From NCBI GenBank assembly GCA_016873615.1, contig VGWX01000011.1, positions 1-42,378 of the forward strand: a stretch of 42,378 nucleotides of DNA, written 5' to 3'. The position numbers and the translations under genes are program-made. Source of the stretch: Nitrospira sp. (lineage in GTDB: Bacteria; Nitrospirota; Thermodesulfovibrionia; Thermodesulfovibrionales; SM23-35). Shown here in pieces: positions 11,603 to 29,956 of this stretch; positions within the stretch are counted from its first letter, which is position 1; every line of letters begins with the position of its first letter. Below the pieces are notes generated by a model. The model worked only from the letters and a program-made list of their open reading frames with translations, ran no database searches and was not told where the DNA came from.

Positions 11603-12529
11603 CTATATGCCTAAATTCTTTATCAGTTTTCTGACAGATTCACAGGATTTTTTGAACTGTGACTTTTCTTCCTTTGTCAATTTGATCTCAACAATCCTCT
11701 CAACCCCTTCTTTGCCGAGTATGACCGGCGCGCCAACATAAATATCTTTCACTCCATATTCTCCGTTAAGAAAGGCTGTACAGGGCAGCATCCGTTTTTC
11801 ATCAAGCAGGATGGACTTTATCATCTGAAAAGTGGAAGCTGCGGGTGCATAATAAGCGCTTCCAACTTTCAGCAGGGCAACGATTTCTGCTCCGCCGTTC
11901 CTTGTCCTTTCTATCAATGACGCAATTTTCTTTTTCGGCAGGAGTTCTGTTAATGGTATGCCTTTCACTGTTGTAAACCTTGGCAATGGCACCATATCAT
12001 CACCATGTCCGCCAAGTACAAGCGCCTCTATATCCTCGGGTGATACATTAAGTTCCCATGAAAGAAATGCCGCTAATCTTGAAGCATCAAGGATTCCGCC
12101 CATTCCCATAACGCGCTTGGAGGAGAATTCAGTGGTTTTCCATGCGAGCTGTGCCATAACATCCATAGGGTTGGTAACAACGATGATGACAGAATATGGT
12201 GAAAACTGTGCAATCTCAGTACTGACACCCCTGACAATGTTTGCATTCGCATGAAGGAGGTCACTCCTTGACATCCCGGGTTTTCTTGCGAGACCCGCGG
12301 TGATTACAATAATATCAGAACCTGCCGTATCCTCATACCTGTTCGTCCCTTTCATGGCAGATGAGGAATTCCAGAGCGGGCATGCTTCCGCCATATCCAG
12401 AGCCTTGCCCTGCGGCATTCCTTCAACTACATCAAAGAGGACAACATCAGCAAGCCCTGACTGCACAACAAGCTGTGCAGTTGTAGCGCCGACATTTCCA
12501 GCTCCTATTATCGACACTTTCTTTTTCAT
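11603..12529 (-). CDS. mdh: Malate dehydrogenase (LDH-like type)
   Basis: The best start is ATG 12529, which begins [20 protein letters not shown] with the Rossmann NAD loop; the upstream in-frame extension to 12601 runs through a hairpin and is rejected. Malate-specific substrate residues are present: ARKPGMSR (Arg82 and Arg88, residues 81-88), Asn120 and Arg151, and the catalytic His175 in [12 protein letters not shown]. The 308-residue length is usual. The enzyme interconverts malate and oxaloacetate and supplies oxaloacetate for the citrate synthase-like gene at 16908-18143. It leads the mdh-ndk pair and is divergent from the cytochrome gene. Confidence 0.95.
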
Positions 12530-12588
12530 AGCGGATACATTATAAAGAATAGAGATAAAGAATGGCAACGAGAGACAAAAAATAAAAT

Positions 12589-12640
12589 AATTATAAACCA
12601 TTTACTGCCATTATATTATGGCAGCAAATGGTTTATAATT
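12589..12640. promoter_or_regulatory. 23-base near-perfect inverted repeat in the mdh/cytochrome divergent region
   Basis: The arms at 12589-12611 and 12618-12640 pair over 23 bases with a single mismatch around a 6-base AT loop (core CTGCCAT-tatatt-ATGGCAG). It lies 60 bases upstream of mdh, between divergent genes, so it does not end either transcript. It could be an operator, a protective mRNA 5' hairpin or a small foldback insertion. The remaining 200 bases before the cytochrome gene hold only weak small frames. Confidence 0.55.
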
Positions 12641-12700
12641 GTATTTATATAAAAAAGCGGAGGAACAGAAACAACACCCTCATAGTGAAAACCCGGCAAG

Positions 12701-14282: not shown

Positions 14283-15578
14283 TTATTCTTTGACTTCTTC
14301 AGGAAGCTTTTCGAGTTTTATTTTTGAGATCCTCTGGCCAACCATCTCCGATACCGTTATTTTCCTGGACTCAATCTCAATAACATCGCCTACCTTGGGG
14401 ATTTTCTGAAGAGCAGTGAGTAAGAAACCGCTCAGTGTCTCATATTCTGTAGATTCCGGTAGTTCTATTTTATAATCCTCTTTCAGATCCCGTATACTGA
14501 TTGACGCATCAACAAGATATACCCCCTCGCTAAGCTGTATAACAGGGCTTTCGGTATCATATTCATCCCTTATTTCTCCAACAATCTCTTCGAGGAGATC
14601 TTCCATTGTCACCAGCCCTGAAACGCCGCCATATTCGTCTATGACCAAAGCCATATGCACCCTTTTCCTCTGCATCTCCTTCAGAAGATTGCTGATATTC
14701 ATCATCTCTGGGATGAAATAGGGCGGTTTAATGAGTTTTCTGATATCGACCGCGCCTTTTCCGAGCGCGTTCAGAAAATCCTTTACATAGAGAATCCCCC
14801 TTATGTCATTAAGGTCCTTGCCGATAACCGGGTAACGTGAGAACTGCTCTTCGCTGATTACGGTTTTTATATCCTCAACCGGCATGTTAAGGCCGATGGT
14901 GACCATCTGTGTAGACGGCATCATGACCTCTTTCACAGACATATCAGTGAATTCAAAAACACTGTGAATGAGCGCCTGCTCTGCCGGTTCAAAAACTCCC
15001 TGCTCGCCGCCTTCCCTGATGAGCATCTTCACTTCCTCTTCGGTGATTGCCCTGCCTGCATGGGTCTTTTTCCCAAAAGGCTTCAGCAGAAAATTCGTGC
15101 TGGATGTGAGGATTTTGACAAAGACGAAGGCGAGCTTTGAGAAAACATCAACGATTTTTGCTGTCTTCAAACCGGTGCGTTCGGGATTTGTCAGTGCGAT
15201 GGATTTTGGAATCAGCTCACCGAAGATAAGGAGAAAATATGTAATGACTACAGTTACGATTCCTATTGAGATGGCTTCTGCCGAAGCAGCGACAAGCTTC
15301 ACGGGAATCTCCTGGATAGCCGGCTTAATGATTTTTACTGCTGCTGCACCTCCGATTGCTGCTGCAAAAACCCCTGCGAATGTAATGCCTATCTGAATCG
15401 TTGCGAGAAACCTGTCCGGCTCTTCTTTGAATTTTTTGAGGATAAGGGCGTTCTTGTTTCCTTCTTCGATCAGTTGTCGTATCCTGATCCTCCGTGTTGC
15501 AACGACTGATATTTCAGCAGCGGCAAAAAAGCCGTTGATGATGATAAAAATGACGATGAGAAGGATATCAGGCCACAT
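14283..15578 (-). CDS. CNNM/CorC-HlyC-type membrane protein with CBS pair (putative divalent cation transporter)
   Basis: Order of domains over 431 residues: an N-terminal DUF21/CNNM membrane domain with four helices (about 1-150, including INGFFAAAEISVVATRRIRIRQL), a CBS pair (about 205-330, MSVKEVMMPSTQMVTI and YGGVSGLVTMEDLLEEIVGEI) and a C-terminal CorC_HlyC domain (about 345-425, ESTEYETLSGFLLTALQKIPKVGDVIE). Proteins of this family are implicated in magnesium or cobalt export and were once called hemolysin-like. The protein sits in the inner membrane with nucleotide-sensing CBS domains in the cytoplasm. It is a single gene, convergent with the cytochrome gene. Confidence 0.92.
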   Translation of the reverse strand: MWPDILLIVIFIIINGFFAAAEISVVATRRIRIRQLIEEGNKNALILKKFKEEPDRFLATIQIGITFAGVFAAAIGGAAAVKIIKPAIQEIPVKLVAASAEAISIGIVTVVITYFLLIFGELIPKSIALTNPERTGLKTAKIVDVFSKLAFVFVKILTSSTNFLLKPFGKKTHAGRAITEEEVKMLIREGGEQGVFEPAEQALIHSVFEFTDMSVKEVMMPSTQMVTIGLNMPVEDIKTVISEEQFSRYPVIGKDLNDIRGILYVKDFLNALGKGAVDIRKLIKPPYFIPEMMNISNLLKEMQRKRVHMALVIDEYGGVSGLVTMEDLLEEIVGEIRDEYDTESPVIQLSEGVYLVDASISIRDLKEDYKIELPESTEYETLSGFLLTALQKIPKVGDVIEIESRKITVSEMVGQRISKIKLEKLPEEVKE

Positions 15579-15639: not shown

Positions 15640-15715
15640 AAATCCCTCCTCTCCTCCCTTTGCCAAAGGGAGGATTAATTCCCCCTCTTTGGTAAAGAGG
15701 GGAAAGGGGAGATTT
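15640..15715. repeat. Interspersed ccctcctttgcc.../...aaagagggg repeat, intergenic copy
   Basis: This 76-base unit begins aaatccctcctctcctccc and ends ggggaaaggggagattt, holding two internal hairpins (CCCTTTG-CC-AAAGGG and CCTCTTT-GGT-AAAGAGG). A related unit lies inside the restriction-modification gene (29031-29111) and a similar one at the window end (42340-42378). The rest of 15579-15830 holds no recognisable gene. Confidence 0.75.
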
Positions 15716-15830: not shown

Positions 15831-16907
15831 TTATCTTAACTTTTCTATTATTGCATCTGCCATCCGGGATGTTGTCGCAGCAGATGGATCATCAGGGGCG
15901 GGTTTCATGTCGTAGGTAACATTCTTCCCTTCTTCTATAACAGAAGCCACAGCGGTCTCTAATCTTTGGGCTGCTTGAAACTCCTGAAGATGCCTCAGCA
16001 TCATTACCCCTGAAAGTATCATAGCCAATGGGTTTACTTTATTCAATCCCTTGTATTTCGGAGCGCTTCCGTGCACAGGCTCAAATACTGCGCACTCTTC
16101 TCCGAGGTTTGCGCCGGGTGCAACACCAAGTCCCCCGATAAGACCTGCTGCAAGATCAGATACCACATCTCCGTATAAATTGGGGAGGACTATCACATCA
16201 TACAGCTCCGGCTTCTGAACAAGCTGCATACACATATTGTCCACGATCCTGTCCTCGAATTCGATATCAGGATACCGTGTTGCAACATTCCGGGCAGTCT
16301 CAAGGAAAAGCCCGTCTGAATATTTCATGATATTTGCTTTGTGGACTGCGGTAACCTTTCTCCTTTTATTTTTCCGGGCATATTCAAATGCGAATCTGAC
16401 AATTCGTTCAGTCCCATAGACAGAAATAGGTTTTATACTGATCCCTGAATCAGATCTTATGGTCTTCCCGGTTAACTCATGAATAAGGCCTATAAGTTTC
16501 TTAACGTCTTCAGATCCTTTCGCGAATTCGATGCCGGCATATAAATCCTCTGTATTTTCCCGTACTATTACAAGGTCAACATCCTGGAATCGCGTCCTGA
16601 CGCCTTTAAATGTCCTGGACGGCCGCAGACAACAATAAAGGTCGAGAGTCTGTCTCAATGTGACATTCACACTTCTGAACCCTGTTCCTACCGGTGTGGT
16701 AATAGGGCCTTTGATAGCAACCTTGTTCTTTTTTATGGAATCAAGGACCCTCTGTGGCAAAGGATTCCCCTCTTTTTCAAAAACATCCAGTCCTGCCTCC
16801 TGAATATCCCATTTGATAGGAATGCCTGTGGCTTCAATAACCCTTTTTGCGGCCTCAGATATTTCAGGCCCTGTGCCGTCTCCCGGAATCAAGGTGATGT
16901 TATACAT
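15831..16907 (-). CDS. icd: NAD-type isocitrate dehydrogenase (isocitrate/isopropylmalate dehydrogenase family)
   Basis: The 358-residue enzyme has the beta-decarboxylating dehydrogenase core: [12 protein letters not shown] at the start, [27 protein letters not shown] (substrate arginines), [27 protein letters not shown] (catalytic Lys) and the metal-binding segment [33 protein letters not shown]. The serine-containing GFRSVN and ENTEDLYAG forms fit isocitrate rather than isopropylmalate dehydrogenases. It oxidises isocitrate to 2-oxoglutarate. Homoisocitrate or isopropylmalate activity cannot be excluded from sequence. The start ATG directly abuts the stop of the upstream citrate synthase-like gene (TAAATG), so the two are translationally coupled and likely work in sequence around aconitase. 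Confidence 0.85.
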
Positions 16908-21538: not shown

Positions 21539-21694
21539 GTGGCAAAAGACCCTGTCTGCAATATGAATGTAGATGAAAAAAAGGCAGCAGGCACAAGTGT
21601 ATATAAAGGCACAACGTATTATTTCTGCGCAAGAATTTGCAAGGAAAAGTTTGACAAAGACCCTGAGAAAATCTTAAAAAAAGAAAAGCAGTAG
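21539..21694 (+). CDS. 51-aa stand-alone YHS-domain metal-binding protein
   Basis: The frame starts at GTG 21539, eight bases after GGAGG; upstream in-frame ATGs at 21515 and 21521 lie before or over this ribosome site and are less likely. The product begins (M)AKDPVCNMNVDEKKAAGTS and continues through TTYYFCARICKEKFDKDPEK, a complete YHS domain with its CxM and FCxxxCKxxF cysteines. YHS domains are found in copper and heavy-metal ATPases and bind copper or related ions. It closely resembles the first YHS domain of the ATPase at 22326-24959 (shared AAGTSVYKG and TYYFCA segments), which suggests one arose from the other. It heads a copper-handling cluster and could act as a cytosolic metal carrier. 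Confidence 0.85.
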   Translation: MAKDPVCNMNVDEKKAAGTSVYKGTTYYFCARICKEKFDKDPEKILKKEKQ

Positions 21695-22325: not shown

Positions 22326-24959
22326 ATGCAAGTCACTGACCCTGTATGCAAGATGGTTATCGAAGATGCTGATGCAGCAGGAACATCTGTGTATAAAGGC
22401 GCCACCTATTATTTCTGCGCACTACAGTGCAAAGAGAATTTTAATAAGGATCCGGAATCCTATATCCAAAAAAATTCTACCGGCCCACGGCTGATGATGC
22501 TCTCGCAGAAAAAGGAATTGAAATTCGAAAGAGCAGATCAAATGGCAGAAGACCCTGTATGCAGGATGAGGGTTGACCCTGAAAAAACCGCTTTCAAATA
22601 TGAGCATAAGGGAAAGATGTATTATTTCTGTTGCCTCGGCTGTCTCAATAAATTTCAGAAAGAACCGGTGAAATATCTGAGTCAGCAGGGGCGTATAACA
22701 GCAATGTCTCACCCAGTTACGGCTTCACAGATCTGTACCGGTTATACCTGCCCCATGCATCCTGAAGTTAAACAGAATGATTCAGGATCATGCCCGCAAT
22801 GCGGCATGTTTCTGGAACCAATTACACCTTCATTATCTACTAAGACCGAATGGATATGCCCGATGGACCCGGAGGTTATCAGTGATAAGCCGGGAAGTTG
22901 TCCTAAGTGCGGCATGGCCCTAGAACCACGAATGATATCACTGGAGGAAGAGGAGAATCCGGAGCTAATTGACATGAAGCAACGCTTCAGGATTAGTCTC
23001 GTGTTGACCGTTCCAGTAGTCTTTATTGCCATGCATCACATGATACCGGGATTTTCATTGGAGAGAATCATAAATTTTGTGGTATTAAGGTGGCTGGAAT
23101 TCCTGCTTGCTACACCTGTAGTTATCTGGTGTGGGTGGCCGTTCTTTGTCCGTGGATGGCAGTCGATTATCAATCGCAGTCCAAATATGTTTACACTGAT
23201 CGGTCTCGGTGTTTCTGTGGCATACATCTATAGTCTTGCAGCCACTTTTTTACCGGGAATCTTTCCTGAATCTTTCAGGGGTAGGGGTGGCAGAGTCGGT
23301 GTCTATTTTGAAGCAGCTGCGGTAATTATAACGTTGGTTCTGCTCGGTCAGGTACTTGAACTGCAGGCACGGGGCCAGACAGGCGCTGCGATTAAAGCTT
23401 TGCTGGGTTTGTCGCCCAAAACTGCACGAAGAATCAAAGAAGATGGTTCTGAAGATGATATGCCTCTTGACCGGGTGAGCCCGGGTGATATGCTCAGGGT
23501 TCGGCCCGGAGAAAAGGTCCCTGTTGACAGCTTAGTCATTGAAGGATCAAGCGCTGTCGATGAGTCAATGATTACAGGAGAAGCAATCCCTGTTCAAAAG
23601 CAGCCGGGCGACCGGGTTATCGGGGCAACAGTAAACAGCACTGGCACCCTCGTTGTCAGAGCGGACAGAGTAGGAGCTGAGACGCTTCTCTCGCAGATCG
23701 TCCGCATGGTTGCAGAGGCACAGAGAAGCCGTGCACCGATTCAGAAGCTGGTTGATATTGTAGCAGGATATTTTGTCCCGATAGTCGTTTCGATAGCTGT
23801 CATCACATTTATTGTCTGGGCATGGTTTGGTCCTGAACCCCGCTTTGCATTTGCACTGATCAATGCTGTTGCTGTCCTCATCATCGCATGCCCCTGTGCC
23901 CTCGGGCTTGCAACCCCGATGTCCATTATGGTTGCCACCGGAAAAGGTGCAGCAGCAGGCGTGCTCTTCAGGAATGCTGAAGCTATTGAAGTTATGAAAA
24001 AAATAGATACACTCGTTCTGGATAAAACCGGGACTCTTACTGTCGGCAAACCCAGGCTCGTTGAAATTTTTCCGGTTGAGGGACAGGATGAAAAAACAGT
24101 TCTTTATTATGCCGCAAGCATCGAACGTGGAAGCGAACATCCTCTGGCTGCAGCAATCGTTTCAGAGGCAGAAGCAAGAAAGGTTGAGCTGAAAAAAGCT
24201 GAATCCTTTCAGTCAATCACAGGGAAGGGTGTTAGAGGCATGGTCGATGGCTATCGGGTTGAACTTGGAAACGTGAAGCTGCTTAATGATGCAGGAAAAG
24301 ATCCGGGCAAGCTTGCGGAAAAAGCAGAAACAATGCGTTCAGAGGGGCAGACTGTCATGTTTGTAATAGTCGAAGGGGAAATTGCAGGAATGTTAGGGGT
24401 AGCCGATCCCATCAAGGAAACCACTCCCGAGGCGATTGAGCAACTTCAACGCGATGATGTAAAAATTGTTATGCTTACTGGTGACAGCCGGACAACGGCT
24501 GAGGCAGTTGCAGGGAAGTTACATATTGATGAGGTTATTGCAGAGGTGCTGCCGGATCAGAAGGCTGAAAAGATAAAACAATTGCAGGATGCCGGACGTA
24601 TTGTGGCAATGGCCGGTGATGGAATCAATGATGCCCCGGCCCTTGCTCAGGCGCACGTCGGAATTGCTATGGGAACCGGGACGGATGTTGCCATGGAAAG
24701 TGCGGGGGTAACTCTGGTAAAAGGGGATCTGAGAGGAATAATTCGCGCCAGGCTTTTGAGTCGCGCAACAATGCGCAATATCAAACAGAATCTTTTCTGG
24801 GCCTTTTTTTATAACTCTCTCGGCGTTCCGGTTGCAGCCGGTATTCTCTATCCTTTTTTCGGTATTCTCCTGAGTCCGATGATCGCTGCTGCAGCAATGA
24901 GCTTCAGCTCCGTCTCTGTCATTGGAAATGCCCTGAGGCTGCAAAGAGTTAAGCTTTAA
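22326..24959 (+). CDS. copA: P1B-type copper-transporting ATPase with tandem YHS and tandem HMBD metal-binding domains
   Basis: The 877-residue pump begins with two YHS domains (about 4-46 and 75-117) and two heavy-metal-binding modules of the CPMHPE-x(8-10)-G-S-CPxCGM type (141-164 and 177-200); no HMA (GMTCxxC) domain is present. The catalytic part has eight or so membrane helices, the [18 protein letters not shown] and MITGEAIPV actuator region, the CPC ion motif (residues 522-524 in [11 protein letters not shown]), the phosphorylation site DKTGT (566-570), SEHPLA in the N domain and [11 protein letters not shown]. The CPC form and the YHS/HMBD N-terminus indicate Cu(I) export, with silver or other soft metals possible. 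The last helices hold [15 protein letters not shown] and [15 protein letters not shown], the Cu+-ATPase signatures. It closes the metal cluster started by the YHS and Met-rich genes. Confidence 0.92.
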
Positions 24960-25046: not shown

Positions 25047-25370
25047 ATGATAAGTAAAAAACCTATAAATGAAGCAACGAAACGATTGGTGGAAAAATTT
25101 CATCCCGAGCGCATTATCCTTTTTGGGTCACAGGCCAGAGGAACTGCTGATAAGCGGAGCGATATAGATCTTCTTGTCATATATCCTTCAAAGAAAAACC
25201 GTATGAAGTTGATGGTTGAAATGAATAGGTCTCTGAAAGGGATAAATTATGCTTTTGACATTGTGATTTTGAGCCCTCGTGAATATGAAATAGATAGCCA
25301 AATACCCGGCACATTAGCGAGGTATGTTTCCCAAGATGGAAAAATAATCTATGAAGCTGCGAAAAAGTGA
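25047..25370 (+). CDS. MntA-like minimal nucleotidyltransferase antitoxin
   Basis: The 107-residue product has the minimal nucleotidyltransferase motif GS-x10-D-x-D (GSQARGTADKRSDID, residues 27-41) with a further acidic strand (AFDIVIL). In HEPN/MNT modules the MNT protein neutralises the HEPN toxin, in the best-studied case by adding AMP groups to it. The stop overlaps the next gene by 20 bases. It is the first gene of the accessory island that follows the copper cluster, whose codon use and AT content look slightly different from the housekeeping genes on either side. Confidence 0.8.
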   Translation: MISKKPINEATKRLVEKFHPERIILFGSQARGTADKRSDIDLLVIYPSKKNRMKLMVEMNRSLKGINYAFDIVILSPREYEIDSQIPGTLARYVSQDGKIIYEAAKK

Positions 25371-25788
25371 TATTACAAAGAAAGTAAGGGAATGGTTAAC
25401 ATACGCTGAGGAGGATCTGCGCATTGCTCGTCATGCCCTTACTCTTTCCAGCAGTGTGCCATATAGGCTTATTGCCTTTCACGCTCAGCAATGTGCGGAA
25501 AAATATCTTAAGTCATATCTTGCATACCATTCCATTGATTTTCCTTATACCCATGATATAAGCAAGTTATTAAAGTGGTGCGAGGAAAAAGCTGATTGGA
25601 CAGATAAGATAAGGCAGGCAGAAGAGCTTACTCCCTTTGCGGTTACAGCTCGATATCCAGGGATTTGGAAATCAGTGACAAAGCGGCAAGCATTGAGGGC
25701 TGTAAAAATTGCCAGTCAGACGCGGAACGTTATAAGGCGTGCACTGATCAAAGAAGGATTAAAGATCAAAAATGAAGACAGTAAATGA
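25351..25788 (+). CDS. HEPN-domain RNase toxin, partner of the MNT gene
   Basis: The 145-residue all-helical protein shows the HEPN pattern WLTYAEEDLRIARHAL, then RLIAFHAQQCAEKYLKSYL, giving an R-x4-H motif (Arg39, His44), the RNase active-site signature of HEPN toxins. The residue after His is Ala-Gln rather than x-Tyr, so it lacks the tyrosine that is modified in the RX4HXY HepT subtype. A TARYPG segment near residue 110 is usual for this HEPN subfamily. The start overlaps the MNT gene by 20 bases, so the pair is translationally coupled. Toxicity is inferred from family. Confidence 0.75.
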   Translation: MKLRKSDITKKVREWLTYAEEDLRIARHALTLSSSVPYRLIAFHAQQCAEKYLKSYLAYHSIDFPYTHDISKLLKWCEEKADWTDKIRQAEELTPFAVTARYPGIWKSVTKRQALRAVKIASQTRNVIRRALIKEGLKIKNEDSK

Positions 25789-26156: not shown

Positions 26157-29100
26157 ATGTTGAAAAAGTATCTTCAGAAGATTGCCGATACAAGCAAGCA
26201 TGGAGATGCACGAGAAGAAAGCTATTATCCAGTCTTAAAATCTCTTCTCGATGAGTATTGTATTGCAATCAACAAGAAAAATATTCACATCACACCTCAA
26301 CCTAAAAAGACAGAGGCAGGAAACCCCGATTTCAGAGTATGGGATGGAAAACAGCATATCACAGGATACATAGAGGCAAAAGACCCTACTGTTGAGAACC
26401 TTGATAAGATAGAGGAAACAGAACAATTAAAGAGATACCTGCATACTTTCCCGAACCTGATACTTACCAATTTTCTTGAGTTCAGGCTTTACCGTAATGG
26501 TGTATTGATTGACAAAGCGCTTATCGGCAGACCCTTTTGGATAAGCAAGGTAAAGACCACCCCACCTGTAGAAAAAGAGTCAGAACTGCTACAGATATTC
26601 GAAAAATTCTTTTCCTTTTCCATTCCGAAAGTCTACGATGCAAAGAATCTTGCAATAGAGCTTGCTAAACGGACACGGTTTTTGAAAGATGAGGTTATAG
26701 CACAGGAGTTAAGGGAAGAAGAAAAGACGGGCAAGGGATTTATCGGGGGATTCTATAAGGCTTTCAAGGATTACCTCATCAGCAGTCTTACAGAGGATGA
26801 ATTTGCAGACCTGTATGCACAGACAATCACCTACGGACTTTTTGCAGCCCGTACACGTTCCGAGAACGGCTTTAACAGAAAACTTGCCTATTACAATATC
26901 CCTGAGACCATAGGAATATTGAGAGATGTTTTTCAGTTTATTTCATTAGGTTCATTACCTCAACCTATGGAGTGGATTATTGATGACATTTCGGAAATCC
27001 TATCCGTTGCCGACATCAATAAAATACTGCATCAATATTTCCATGAAGGGAAAGGCAAAGACCCTGTAGTGCATTTTTATGAAACATTTCTTTCCGAGTA
27101 TGACCCCCATACAAGAGCGATGAGGGGAGTATATTACACCCCTGAACCTGTAGTGTCCTATATAGTTCGTTCATTGCATGGCATCCTGAAAGAGCAATTT
27201 AAAAGACCCGATGGATTAGCAAGCAACACTGTTACTGTTTTAGACCCTGCAGCAGGAACGCTGACTTTTTTAGCTGAGTCTGCAAAATTAGCTGTTGATG
27301 AGTTTGTATCAAAATACGGAGAGGGAGGCAAGGAGAATTTCATCAAAGAGCATATCCTGAAGAACTTCTATGCTTTTGAATTAATGATGGCGCCCTATGC
27401 AATAGGTCACTTAAAGATGTCTTTCCTGCTTGAGGAATTAGGATACAGGTTGCAGAAGGATGACAGGGTAAAGCTGTATCTTACCAATACCCTTGAGATG
27501 GAAGAACTTGCACAGACCGAATTACCAGGAATGGTTTCCCTGTCAGAAGAATCACACCTTGCAGGAATAGTAAAAAAAGAACAGCCGATTTTAGTGATAT
27601 TAGGCAACCCTCCGTATTCAGTAAGTTCCGTCAATAAATCCGACTTCATAGAACAGGAGATGGAACTATATAAAGAGGATGTACGAAAAGAAAGAAACAT
27701 ACAGCCCCTTTCAGATGATTATATAAAGTTCATCCGGTTTGCACATTGGAAGATAGACCGTGACGGCAAAGGGATAATCGGGATGATTACAAATAACTCC
27801 TATCTGTCGGGATTAATACACAGGGGGATGAGAAAAAGATTGCTTGACAGTTTCGATGAAATTTATATCTTAAACCTTCACGGTAACAGCCGTATCGGTG
27901 AAAAGTGTGCTGATGGAAGCAAGGATGAAAATGTTTTTGACATTCAGCAGGGTGTATCTATTGTCTTATTCATCAAAAAGGAGCAGAAGGGGAAAGCTTG
28001 TAAAGTCTTTTATCAGGACGTCTACGGATTAAGAGAAAATAAATATGACCTTTTAAGTAAATCCGATTTCCATACAACAGAATGGAAACAATTAAACCCT
28101 GTAGAACCTTATTATTTCTTTATTGTGAAAGATTTTTCATTACAGCCAAAATACGATAAGTTTGTATCTATTACTGACATATTCGATAAATGTTCATTTG
28201 GTATCACAACTGCACGAGACCATTTTGTTATAGGCTTTAACGAACAAGAAATTAAGCAGAGATTACGGACATTCACAAGTGACTTGCCTGATGATTTGGT
28301 TGCCCAGTCTTTGGATTTGAACGATACAGGCGAATGGAATATAAAGATCGCAAGAGAAGCGGTTAGGAAAATTGATTGGGAAAAATCTATAAAGCCGTAT
28401 TCATATCGTCCGTTTGATGACCGAAAAATAGCTTATTTGCCAAATCTTATTGAGAGAGACAGACTTGAAATAATGCAACATATTTTAGAGAAAGATAACC
28501 TTGTCTTATCCTTGACAAGAAGACTGAGAGATCCCCTCTGGCAACATGTTCTTGTCTCACAGTTCATCACAGATAAAACAATTCTTTCATCAAGGGATAA
28601 CTGTTATTGTTTCCCGCTCTATCTCTATCAAACAACTGAAAAGAGCAGAAAAAAATCATTTAAAAATATCATGATGCTTTTTGAGCCTGAGGCAGATTAT
28701 TTTGTTAGGAAACCTAATTTCACCCTTACATTTACTGATTTTATATCAAAACAGTTCAGGAAATCTCCAAATCCTGAAGAAATCTTCTATTACATTTATG
28801 CTGTCCTTTATTCCGAGACATACAGAACAAAATATGCAGAGTTCCTGAAGATAGACTTTCCGAGAGTGCCGTTTACAAAGGACTATAAGCTGTTTAAGAA
28901 AATGTCCGAATACGGTAATATGCTTGCTGATTTGCACTTACTGAAATCCTCTGAACTTGATTCACCGATTGCACGGTTTCAGGAAACAGGTGATAACCGG
29001 GTAAGAAAGTTGCGATATGAATTATCCGAAAAATCTCCCCTTTCCCCTCTTTGCCAAAGAGGGGAAAAAACTCTAACCCCCACTTTAGTAAAGGGGGGTG

Positions 29101-29345
29101 AGGGGGGATTTGGTCTTCTTTACATCAATAAAGACCAATATTTTGAAGGCATATCAGAGGAAGTATGGAACTATCAAATCGGTGGGTATCAGGTCTGTGA
29201 TAAATGGCTGAAGGATAGGAAAGAAAGGGTACTATCCCTTGATGAGATACAAACCTATTGCAGAATAGTAACGGCGATTCAAAAGACGATTAGCATACAG
29301 GAGGGGATCGACAAAATTTATGATGCGGTTGAACAATCCCTATGA
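26157..29345 (+). CDS. Single-chain restriction-modification enzyme (type IIG / type ISP-like)
   Basis: The 1062-residue protein has an N-terminal PD-(D/E)XK-type nuclease (about 45-80: NPDFRVWDGKQHITGYIEAKD, with Asp58 and Glu73-x-Lys75). A helical linker (about 150-300) follows, then an N6-adenine methyltransferase domain (motif I DPAAGTLTF near 363, motif IV NPPY near 484-487, then SYLSG and later motifs). The C-terminal region (about 600-950) should be the target recognition domain (YSYRPFDDRKIAYLP segment). Such enzymes cut and methylate with one polypeptide. Residues 959-985 are encoded by an interspersed repeat (29031-29111) inside a non-conserved loop; the frame stays open, so the enzyme may still work. 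ATG 26157 has a GGGGAG about 13 bases before it. No helicase subunit is adjacent. Confidence 0.85.
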   Translation: MLKKYLQKIADTSKHGDAREESYYPVLKSLLDEYCIAINKKNIHITPQPKKTEAGNPDFRVWDGKQHITGYIEAKDPTVENLDKIEETEQLKRYLHTFPNLILTNFLEFRLYRNGVLIDKALIGRPFWISKVKTTPPVEKESELLQIFEKFFSFSIPKVYDAKNLAIELAKRTRFLKDEVIAQELREEEKTGKGFIGGFYKAFKDYLISSLTEDEFADLYAQTITYGLFAARTRSENGFNRKLAYYNIPETIGILRDVFQFISLGSLPQPMEWIIDDISEILSVADINKILHQYFHEGKGKDPVVHFYETFLSEYDPHTRAMRGVYYTPEPVVSYIVRSLHGILKEQFKRPDGLASNTVTVLDPAAGTLTFLAESAKLAVDEFVSKYGEGGKENFIKEHILKNFYAFELMMAPYAIGHLKMSFLLEELGYRLQKDDRVKLYLTNTLEMEELAQTELPGMVSLSEESHLAGIVKKEQPILVILGNPPYSVSSVNKSDFIEQEMELYKEDVRKERNIQPLSDDYIKFIRFAHWKIDRDGKGIIGMITNNSYLSGLIHRGMRKRLLDSFDEIYILNLHGNSRIGEKCADGSKDENVFDIQQGVSIVLFIKKEQKGKACKVFYQDVYGLRENKYDLLSKSDFHTTEWKQLNPVEPYYFFIVKDFSLQPKYDKFVSITDIFDKCSFGITTARDHFVIGFNEQEIKQRLRTFTSDLPDDLVAQSLDLNDTGEWNIKIAREAVRKIDWEKSIKPYSYRPFDDRKIAYLPNLIERDRLEIMQHILEKDNLVLSLTRRLRDPLWQHVLVSQFITDKTILSSRDNCYCFPLYLYQTTEKSRKKSFKNIMMLFEPEADYFVRKPNFTLTFTDFISKQFRKSPNPEEIFYYIYAVLYSETYRTKYAEFLKIDFPRVPFTKDYKLFKKMSEYGNMLADLHLLKSSELDSPIARFQETGDNRVRKLRYELSEKSPLSPLCQRGEKTLTPTLVKGGEGGFGLLYINKDQYFEGISEEVWNYQIGGYQVCDKWLKDRKERVLSLDEIQTYCRIVTAIQKTISIQEGIDKIYDAVEQSL
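29031..29111. repeat. 81-bp interspersed repeat lodged in frame inside the restriction-modification gene
   Basis: The unit runs from aaatctcccctttcccctc to gaggggggattt and is composed of two hairpins (CCCCTCTTT-GCC-AAAGAGGGG and CCCCCACTTTAGTAAAGGGGGG). Its 81 bases equal 27 codons and it reads through as KSPLSPLCQRGEKTLTPTLV plus KGGEGGF, adding a Pro/Gly-rich loop. It is a close relative of the intergenic unit at 15640-15715, in the opposite role of coding DNA. Confidence 0.85.
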
Positions 29346-29380
29346 GGGCGAATGATTGAGGTTGGGAGAGGAGTGTGTCG

Positions 29381-29956
29381 ATGAAAGTTCATCATCTCAT
29401 AGTCATCGCAGGCCCTAACGGCGCAGGGAAATCAACAACTGCTCCTTCTCTTTTAAAGGGGACGCTTGAGGTGACTGAGTTTGTTAATGCGGACTTAATC
29501 GCTCAAGGATTGTCCGGCTTCCAGCCGGAAGGCGCGGCATTTCATGCCGGGCGTGTAATGCTTGAGCGGATACATTATCTGGCCAAAAAACGGGTTGATT
29601 TTGCCTTTGAAACGACCCTGTCCAGCAAAACGTTTGCCTCATGGATTACCGACTTGCGCAAAACGGGCTATAACTTTCATCTGGTCTTCCTCTGGCTGCC
29701 AAATGATGATTTTGCTGTCGCGCGGGTAGCAGAGAGAGTTCGCATGGGCGGGCATAATGTTCCTGAAGAAACTATACGGAGGAGGTATTATTCAGGATTA
29801 CGGAACTTTTTTCGTCTTTATCAGGAATTAACAGATAAATGGCGTTTCTATAATAATGCTGATCCTTCCGGTCCACGCCTGATTGCATCAGGTAGCGGAA
29901 AAAACTGCGATAAAGTACATGATATTGCAATATGGAATCGTATTGTGAGAAAATGA
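29381..29956 (+). CDS. Zeta-toxin-like P-loop kinase
   Basis: I chose ATG 29381, seven bases after GAGAGGAG, over the GTG two codons earlier. The 191-residue protein has a Walker A motif GPNGAGKST (residues 11-19), then FVNADLIAQGL (the zeta-type Asp) and FAFETTLSS (Glu-Thr-Thr-Leu), and RRYYSGLRNF, together diagnostic of the zeta/COG4185 kinases. Zeta toxins phosphorylate UDP-N-acetylglucosamine to block cell wall synthesis; the substrate of this short branch is unproven. It is followed four bases later by a 59-codon gene, an expected antitoxin, in the reverse of the usual epsilon-zeta order. Confidence 0.82.
   Translation: MKVHHLIVIAGPNGAGKSTTAPSLLKGTLEVTEFVNADLIAQGLSGFQPEGAAFHAGRVMLERIHYLAKKRVDFAFETTLSSKTFASWITDLRKTGYNFHLVFLWLPNDDFAVARVAERVRMGGHNVPEETIRRRYYSGLRNFFRLYQELTDKWRFYNNADPSGPRLIASGSGKNCDKVHDIAIWNRIVRK

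Follow-up and report, generated by a model that had tools for sequence, protein, structure and literature searches.

An interspersed palindromic repeat carried in frame in a restriction-modification gene of a Nitrospirota genome, with unrelated repeats at the same protein loops in sister genera

A restriction-modification gene at 26157-29345 (+ strand) carries an 81-nt palindromic repeat at 29031-29111 (+ strand) within its reading frame, and the question raised by this locus is whether a dispersed genomic repeat has become protein here and, if so, how it came to be tolerated. The window, i.e. the whole stretch of DNA that was analysed, comprises 42,378 nucleotides of contig VGWX01000011.1 from Nitrospira sp. 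(assembly GCA_016873615.1). The first nucleotide of the element is position 1 of the codon for residue 959; the element is without a stop codon and supplies residues 959-985 (translation KSPLSPLCQRGEKTLTPTLVKGGEGGF); its position, its phase and the open frame of its 27 codons are all as claimed in an earlier note on this DNA.

The host gene had been called a restriction-modification enzyme in that note, and domain searches agree. A Pfam scan of the ORF, which encodes a single chain of 1062 aa, matched N6_Mtase, Eco57I and Type_ISP_C (residues 674-1043), so both an N6-adenine methylase and a Type ISP C-terminal specificity domain are present, and the PDB matches by sequence and fold were DrdV, LlaBIII and LlaGI, with DrdV (1029 aa) having the nearest fold. 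As an SF2 helicase domain was looked for in this chain and the Pfam scan returned no helicase family, we prefer the name single-chain DrdV-like restriction-modification enzyme with a Type ISP-like specificity domain. The gene is preceded by a nucleotidyltransferase/HEPN pair (25047-25788) and followed by a zeta-toxin-like gene (29375-29956), and together these probably constitute a defence neighbourhood. Two further repeats were observed in the window: a 119-nt direct repeat (72% identical) associated with a metal P-type ATPase gene containing YHS and HMBD domains, with one copy upstream (21548-21666) and the other at the gene start (22338-22456), and a 31-nt inverted repeat with zero spacer (12584-12645, 87% complementary), which adjoins a minus-strand ORF at 11603-12601.

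The 81-nt element comprises two hairpins and an AAATC..GATTT closing stem. Covariance model R1, built for the 34-nt half-unit, matched both halves on opposite strands: half-unit 1, of the 'T' subtype (AAATCTCCCCTTTCCCCTCTTTGCCAAAGAGGGG), at 29031-29064 on the + strand with 56.8 bits, and half-unit 2, of the 'C' subtype (AAATCCCCCCTCACCCCCCTTTACTAAAGTGGGG) and inverted relative to half-unit 1, at 29078-29111 on the - strand with 55.5 bits. Either strand gives two hairpins and a terminal stem, and folding the element as single-stranded DNA produced a closed two-hairpin cloverleaf (z ~ -4.9) which none of 200 shuffles equalled in stability. An Rfam scan of the window returned a tRNA alone, the repeat matching no described RNA family. 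A second copy, which the earlier note had placed at 15640-15715, is indeed the same repeat (80% identity end to end, by pairwise match and covariance model), but, as a correction to that note, this long-form copy is inverted, lying on the - strand, and is 76 nt in length. It is intergenic, between a CNNM/CBS-domain gene (14283-15578) and an isocitrate/isopropylmalate dehydrogenase gene (15831-16907). Elsewhere in the genome there are full-length relatives with up to 84% identity over 81 nt (best E = 3e-18). Compared with a MITE, which has terminal inverted repeats and a target-site duplication, the element has ends which are inverted repeats; the window copy is compatible with zero duplication and a copy in malQ with a putative 2-nt AA duplication.

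We surveyed the repeat across the 2.9-Mb genome, a 216-contig assembly, by pattern, BLAST and covariance-model searches together with individually extracted stretches. The hairpin core occurred 80 times compared to 15 times for a reversed control, and model R1 gave 146 matches, which were merged by hand into approximately 60 dispersed elements. The long two-hairpin form (~73-105 nt) was intergenic in 24 of 26 cases, the exceptions being the window copy and one copy in IspA, while the short form, a single hairpin of ~45 nt, was genic in 17 of 25 cases and read as NPPxPPFxKGGxGGF; with classes assigned by hand, this difference between short genic and long intergenic elements was significant (Fisher: p = 8e-6). 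Only 8 of the 26 long elements have lengths divisible by three, which is about chance level, and most long copies would therefore not be tolerable in genes. A larger composite element, consisting of two half-units and further palindromic arms such as CTTCAGTGAAG, was also seen in ~9 copies (L011, L012, L014, L016-L019, L023 and L147). Separately, 23 stretches from viral contigs (L274-L296) contained the exact half-unit CCCCYCTTTRCCAAAGRGGGG, and these could act as vehicles or could be host sequence misclassified as viral.

The earlier note had proposed counting copies of the repeat genome-wide and asking how many lie in genes and in which frames. Elements were counted as genic where there was a Pfam or solved-structure match on both sides or where the ORF evidently encoded a known protein; on this basis 21 elements lie in frame within 18 homology-confirmed genes. 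Single elements were found in the genes for the window enzyme, RtcA, IspA/GGPPS, an Eco57I-type enzyme, LeuS, MalQ, Alr, TopA, an alpha-2-macroglobulin, TsaD, BioA, MutL, a radical-SAM protein, an AsmA-like protein and PBP1C, and two elements each in those for MnmA, HypF and PurL. Elements with doubt about the start or in genes without homology support were left out, namely L020 and L161 (short forms at gene starts, where the start codon is uncertain) and the low-scoring L154. The note therefore understated the phenomenon, as the window copy is one of many genic cases of a repeat whose long form is normally intergenic. All three reading frames are used: from peptides read by eye, 14 of the 21 elements encode NPPxPPFxKGGxGG, 5 encode IPPxPPLxKGG and 2, including the window copy, are in the third frame, in which the loop bases ACT or AGT would create a stop and the GCC loop of window half-unit 1 does not. 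Comparison to solved structures identified extra residues in LeuS, TsaD, farnesyl/geranylgeranyl-PP synthase, Alr and MnmA, and in TopA the structure match was broken at the insert. The cleanest empty site is in malQ, where two sister genera read CAA/CAG-AAT/AAC and the filled site here reads CAG-[48 nt]-AAT, the 48-nt insert being compatible with a 46-nt element plus the 2-nt AA duplication. The copy in the Eco57I-type restriction-modification gene (L026, G000:C70:3291-3323) is shortened and lies a few residues before the NPPY motif. As the assembly is in 216 contigs, there could be assembly errors at a few repeat junctions.

Are the 27 residues of the window enzyme extra, or could they be an ancestral protein segment, or a chance low-complexity coding sequence which resembles the repeat? 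The peptide is Pro/Gly-rich and of low complexity, as this alternative would expect. The test set beforehand was an alignment of homologues, and we compared the stretch in approximately 90 of these (80 loci plus relatives) from many phyla, in a list rich in Nitrospirae MAGs; the 27 residues are missing from them, and the outcome that would have counted against the note did not occur. Its length was mostly 30-33 residues and in a few cases 35-41; longer stretches were only found in the window enzyme, in three homologues (L037, L039 and L082) and in L084, and the few long inserts outside the window enzyme are other repeats. An insert-free paralogue in the same genome (G000:C36:12904-16020), ~71% identical to the window enzyme, reads GDNRVKKPKYDNKAEVLYIN where the latter carries 27 more residues, the net difference being exactly 27. 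An ancestral or chance origin is contradicted by these homologues without the segment, by genomic copies with up to 84% DNA identity over the full length and by a fold outside the range of its shuffles, and is almost certainly wrong. Both the chance and the ancestral-segment readings were rejected, on the ~90 insert-free homologues, the 200 shuffles and the excess of the hairpin core over its reversed control. The Pro/Gly-rich loop that the note had described is matched by an AlphaFold model (55-sequence alignment, mean pLDDT 78.8), in which residues 960-982 have a pLDDT < 50 and sit between strands 953-957 and 985-989, and the insert is thus predicted to be a disordered loop at the tip of a beta-hairpin.

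The other long inserts at this site were of different kinds. L037 (in genome G004, and also listed as L113), L039 (in G029) and L082 carry LSLRGKAEAISKDEILR[SC]AQND, encoded by a 66-nt repeat which we call repeat-2 and which is interspersed, with 35 matches in G004 and 28 in G029. The insert of L084 is PSLNPSPQGRETYSPSPLGGEGWVRGG, and its DNA reads as another hairpin pair. Three repeat families thus occupy this one loop of the restriction enzyme, each in other lineages, the L084 filler being judged from its hairpin DNA. Repeat-2 lies at the same codon in all three of its carriers, where 2-4 of its 66 bases differ (94-97% identity) and the flanking DNA is 67-81% identical; for L037 and L039 the probability of 64 matches in 66 at the identity of the flanks is 6e-8. 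The next-closest copies of repeat-2, in the two of the three genomes that were checked, were 89% (G004) and 85% (G029) identical. In a whole-protein tree the sister of L037 is L038 and that of L082 is L042, both of which are insert-free. If the machinery of the repeats preferred certain DNA sites, hot sites and not tolerant loops would cause the recurrence, and the presence of repeat-2 at one codon in three lineages which the whole-protein tree does not group as sisters would fit. However, the three repeat families in the restriction gene lie at offsets several codons apart and no common target motif was seen. Moreover, L039 and L082 are nearest neighbours by their C-terminal region alone, so that two of the three repeat-2 inserts may share one insertion. 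We therefore regard targeted insertion as improbable. The repeat-2 pattern could have arisen by common descent, by renewed insertion from one source or by recombination over short tracts. It is rather unlikely, though conceivable from these sequences, that some repeats pass between species into fixed protein-loop sites and are re-seeded from a shared pool; if this were true, loop length in core enzymes would be a genus-specific trait driven by mobile DNA.

For eleven of the insertion sites we joined the flanks without their insert, used them as queries against eight sister genera and then read the junctions. In 35 of 70 ortholog pairs the junction was longer by at least 8 residues, and in 28 of 70 a recognisable repeat peptide was present. 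Indels of at least 8 residues inside the aligned arms were found in none of the 70 pairs, a control which is biased as a local alignment stops where a gap is large. The fillers in the sister genera were unrelated interspersed or tandem repeats: the LeuS loop, for example, is filled by HPSPSRGEGKGGGE in G013, by RIQDTRYRIQDKK..SCIMNHES in G001 and by HRAQETTPPPPLLQGEG..NPPTPPLSKGGWGGF in G004. The G013 filler, of the HPSPSRGEG type, is interspersed, with 27 matches in that genome which are mostly 90-98% identical, and repeats of this type fill the leuS, alr and tsaD loops of G013 (L234, L251 and L242). The simplest reading of these sequences would be that the loops tolerate insertion and gather whichever repeat is locally active. 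The repeated lengthening of the same loops by unrelated repeats across genera could also point to recruited function, in which inserts are kept because they serve, for example, as flexible linkers, sites of interaction or modulators of specificity, and longer loops are selected for; repeat-2, being far more conserved than its flanks in the three homologous enzymes, would agree with this. Yet insert-free orthologues are common, the peptides are alike only in composition, the examined loop is predicted to be disordered and the filler is whichever repeat abounds in that genome, and we consider recruitment quite unlikely.

We consider it very probable that a non-autonomous, REPIN-like palindromic repeat inserted into the restriction gene and is tolerated as a disordered loop. 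A dispersed repeat of two inverted half-units would have entered the gene at the codons of a surface beta-hairpin tip and, because it is 81 nt long, has a stop-free frame and leaves no extra bases, translation would continue into a 27-residue disordered Pro/Gly-rich loop, which we infer to be expressed and tolerated by the protein. There was no indication of any role of the insert for the enzyme, and it is presumably neutral, although it could have damaged the enzyme. The family would keep inserting into the genome, and copies in genes would survive if they are divisible by three in length and fall, in an open frame, on a tolerant loop; as survival would be confined to tolerant loops, the same loops would collect different repeats in different lineages. 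The enzyme could alternatively be a decaying pseudogene in which an insert is simply not selected against, as restriction genes are often lost and this genome has a second, insert-free paralogue. The 1062-codon frame is, however, intact, with strong Pfam matches and an NPPY motif at 484-487, and the housekeeping genes leuS, tsaD and topA also carry inserts, making inactivation an unlikely explanation.

The note had taken the repeat to be mobile, and its dispersed and patchy distribution likewise makes mobility probable: at E 0.01, 26 of the 41 relatives had half-unit matches (range 0 to 184 per genome), and at E 1e-4 so did 68 of 198 genomes sampled from the Nitrospirota. The number of Y1_Tnp genes was correlated with the number of repeats (Spearman 0.65; 0.64 within the family and 0.58 outside; partial correlation given DDE_Tnp_1 0.62), and DDE_Tnp_1 did not follow repeat number (0.29, p = 0.06), all of these coefficients taking no account of kinship. 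The surroundings of 35 sampled Y1 loci yielded just two half-unit matches, both weak (E 0.003 and 0.007), and genome G039 has 93 repeat matches with zero Y1 genes detected. The copy-number correlation suggests that a Y1/HUH (RAYT-like) transposase may mobilise the repeat in trans, which we put forward tentatively and with less than even confidence.

With these results, palindromic repeats that encode protein are extended to another host phylum, and to the housekeeping proteins LeuS, TsaD, TopA, IspA, Alr and MnmA. The comparison of multiple genera is a natural experiment, in which repeatedly filled loops mark insertion-tolerant protein sites. The results also give a warning that residues of this kind, when met in environmental proteins, come from repeat DNA and are not conserved motifs, which affects alignments, trees and annotation.

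Several known systems resemble this one. Rickettsia palindromic elements (RPEs; Ogata et al. 2000; reviewed in PMC2229807 and PMC10969869) are in-frame palindromes in protein genes, and as with RPEs we found many dispersed palindromic copies, both in spacers and in frame in conserved genes (18 here), encoding residues which are missing from homologues and sister genera. RPEs are 105-146 bp in size (PMC2229807), whereas the elements here are 45-81 nt, C/G-rich and from Nitrospirota, and sister genera fill the same loops with unrelated repeats, which sets them apart from the RPE description. GTAG/CGTC REPs are likewise short hairpin units, often in inverted dimers, within ORFs; intragenic REPs and dimers encode 20-30 residues, and the occurrence of different REPs at about the same recB site in two Xanthomonas species (PMC3733652) is a direct precedent. 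The half-unit alignment here, however, begins AAATC and ends GGGG, with neither tetranucleotide tag, the recurrence at the same site covers many genes and eight genera, and the text of the REP survey makes no mention of Nitrospirota (PMC3733652). The REPIN/RAYT (TnpA-REP) system shares two inverted hairpin half-units, as in the opposite-strand R1 matches of the window element, and a copy number which tracks Y1 gene number (PMC3116915, PMC8266576), but here there was no strong repeat match beside Y1 genes, no tetranucleotide tag, and a short form with only one hairpin. In Correia/NEMIS elements, related sizes differ in genic preference (PMC2229807), similar to the two related element sizes here, one mostly inside genes and the other mostly between them. 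Correia elements also have terminal inverted repeats and a target-site duplication; a duplication would be putative here, the window copy being compatible with none and the malQ copy with AA. In the open-licence literature we found neither the peptides (the one paper returned for them was unrelated) nor the hairpin sequences of this family nor, among the titles listed, a report of in-frame repeats of this kind in Nitrospirota. The phenomenon itself is thus known from RPEs and intragenic REPs, while what looks new is the family, its occurrence in this phylum and the way in which the same loops are filled again and again.
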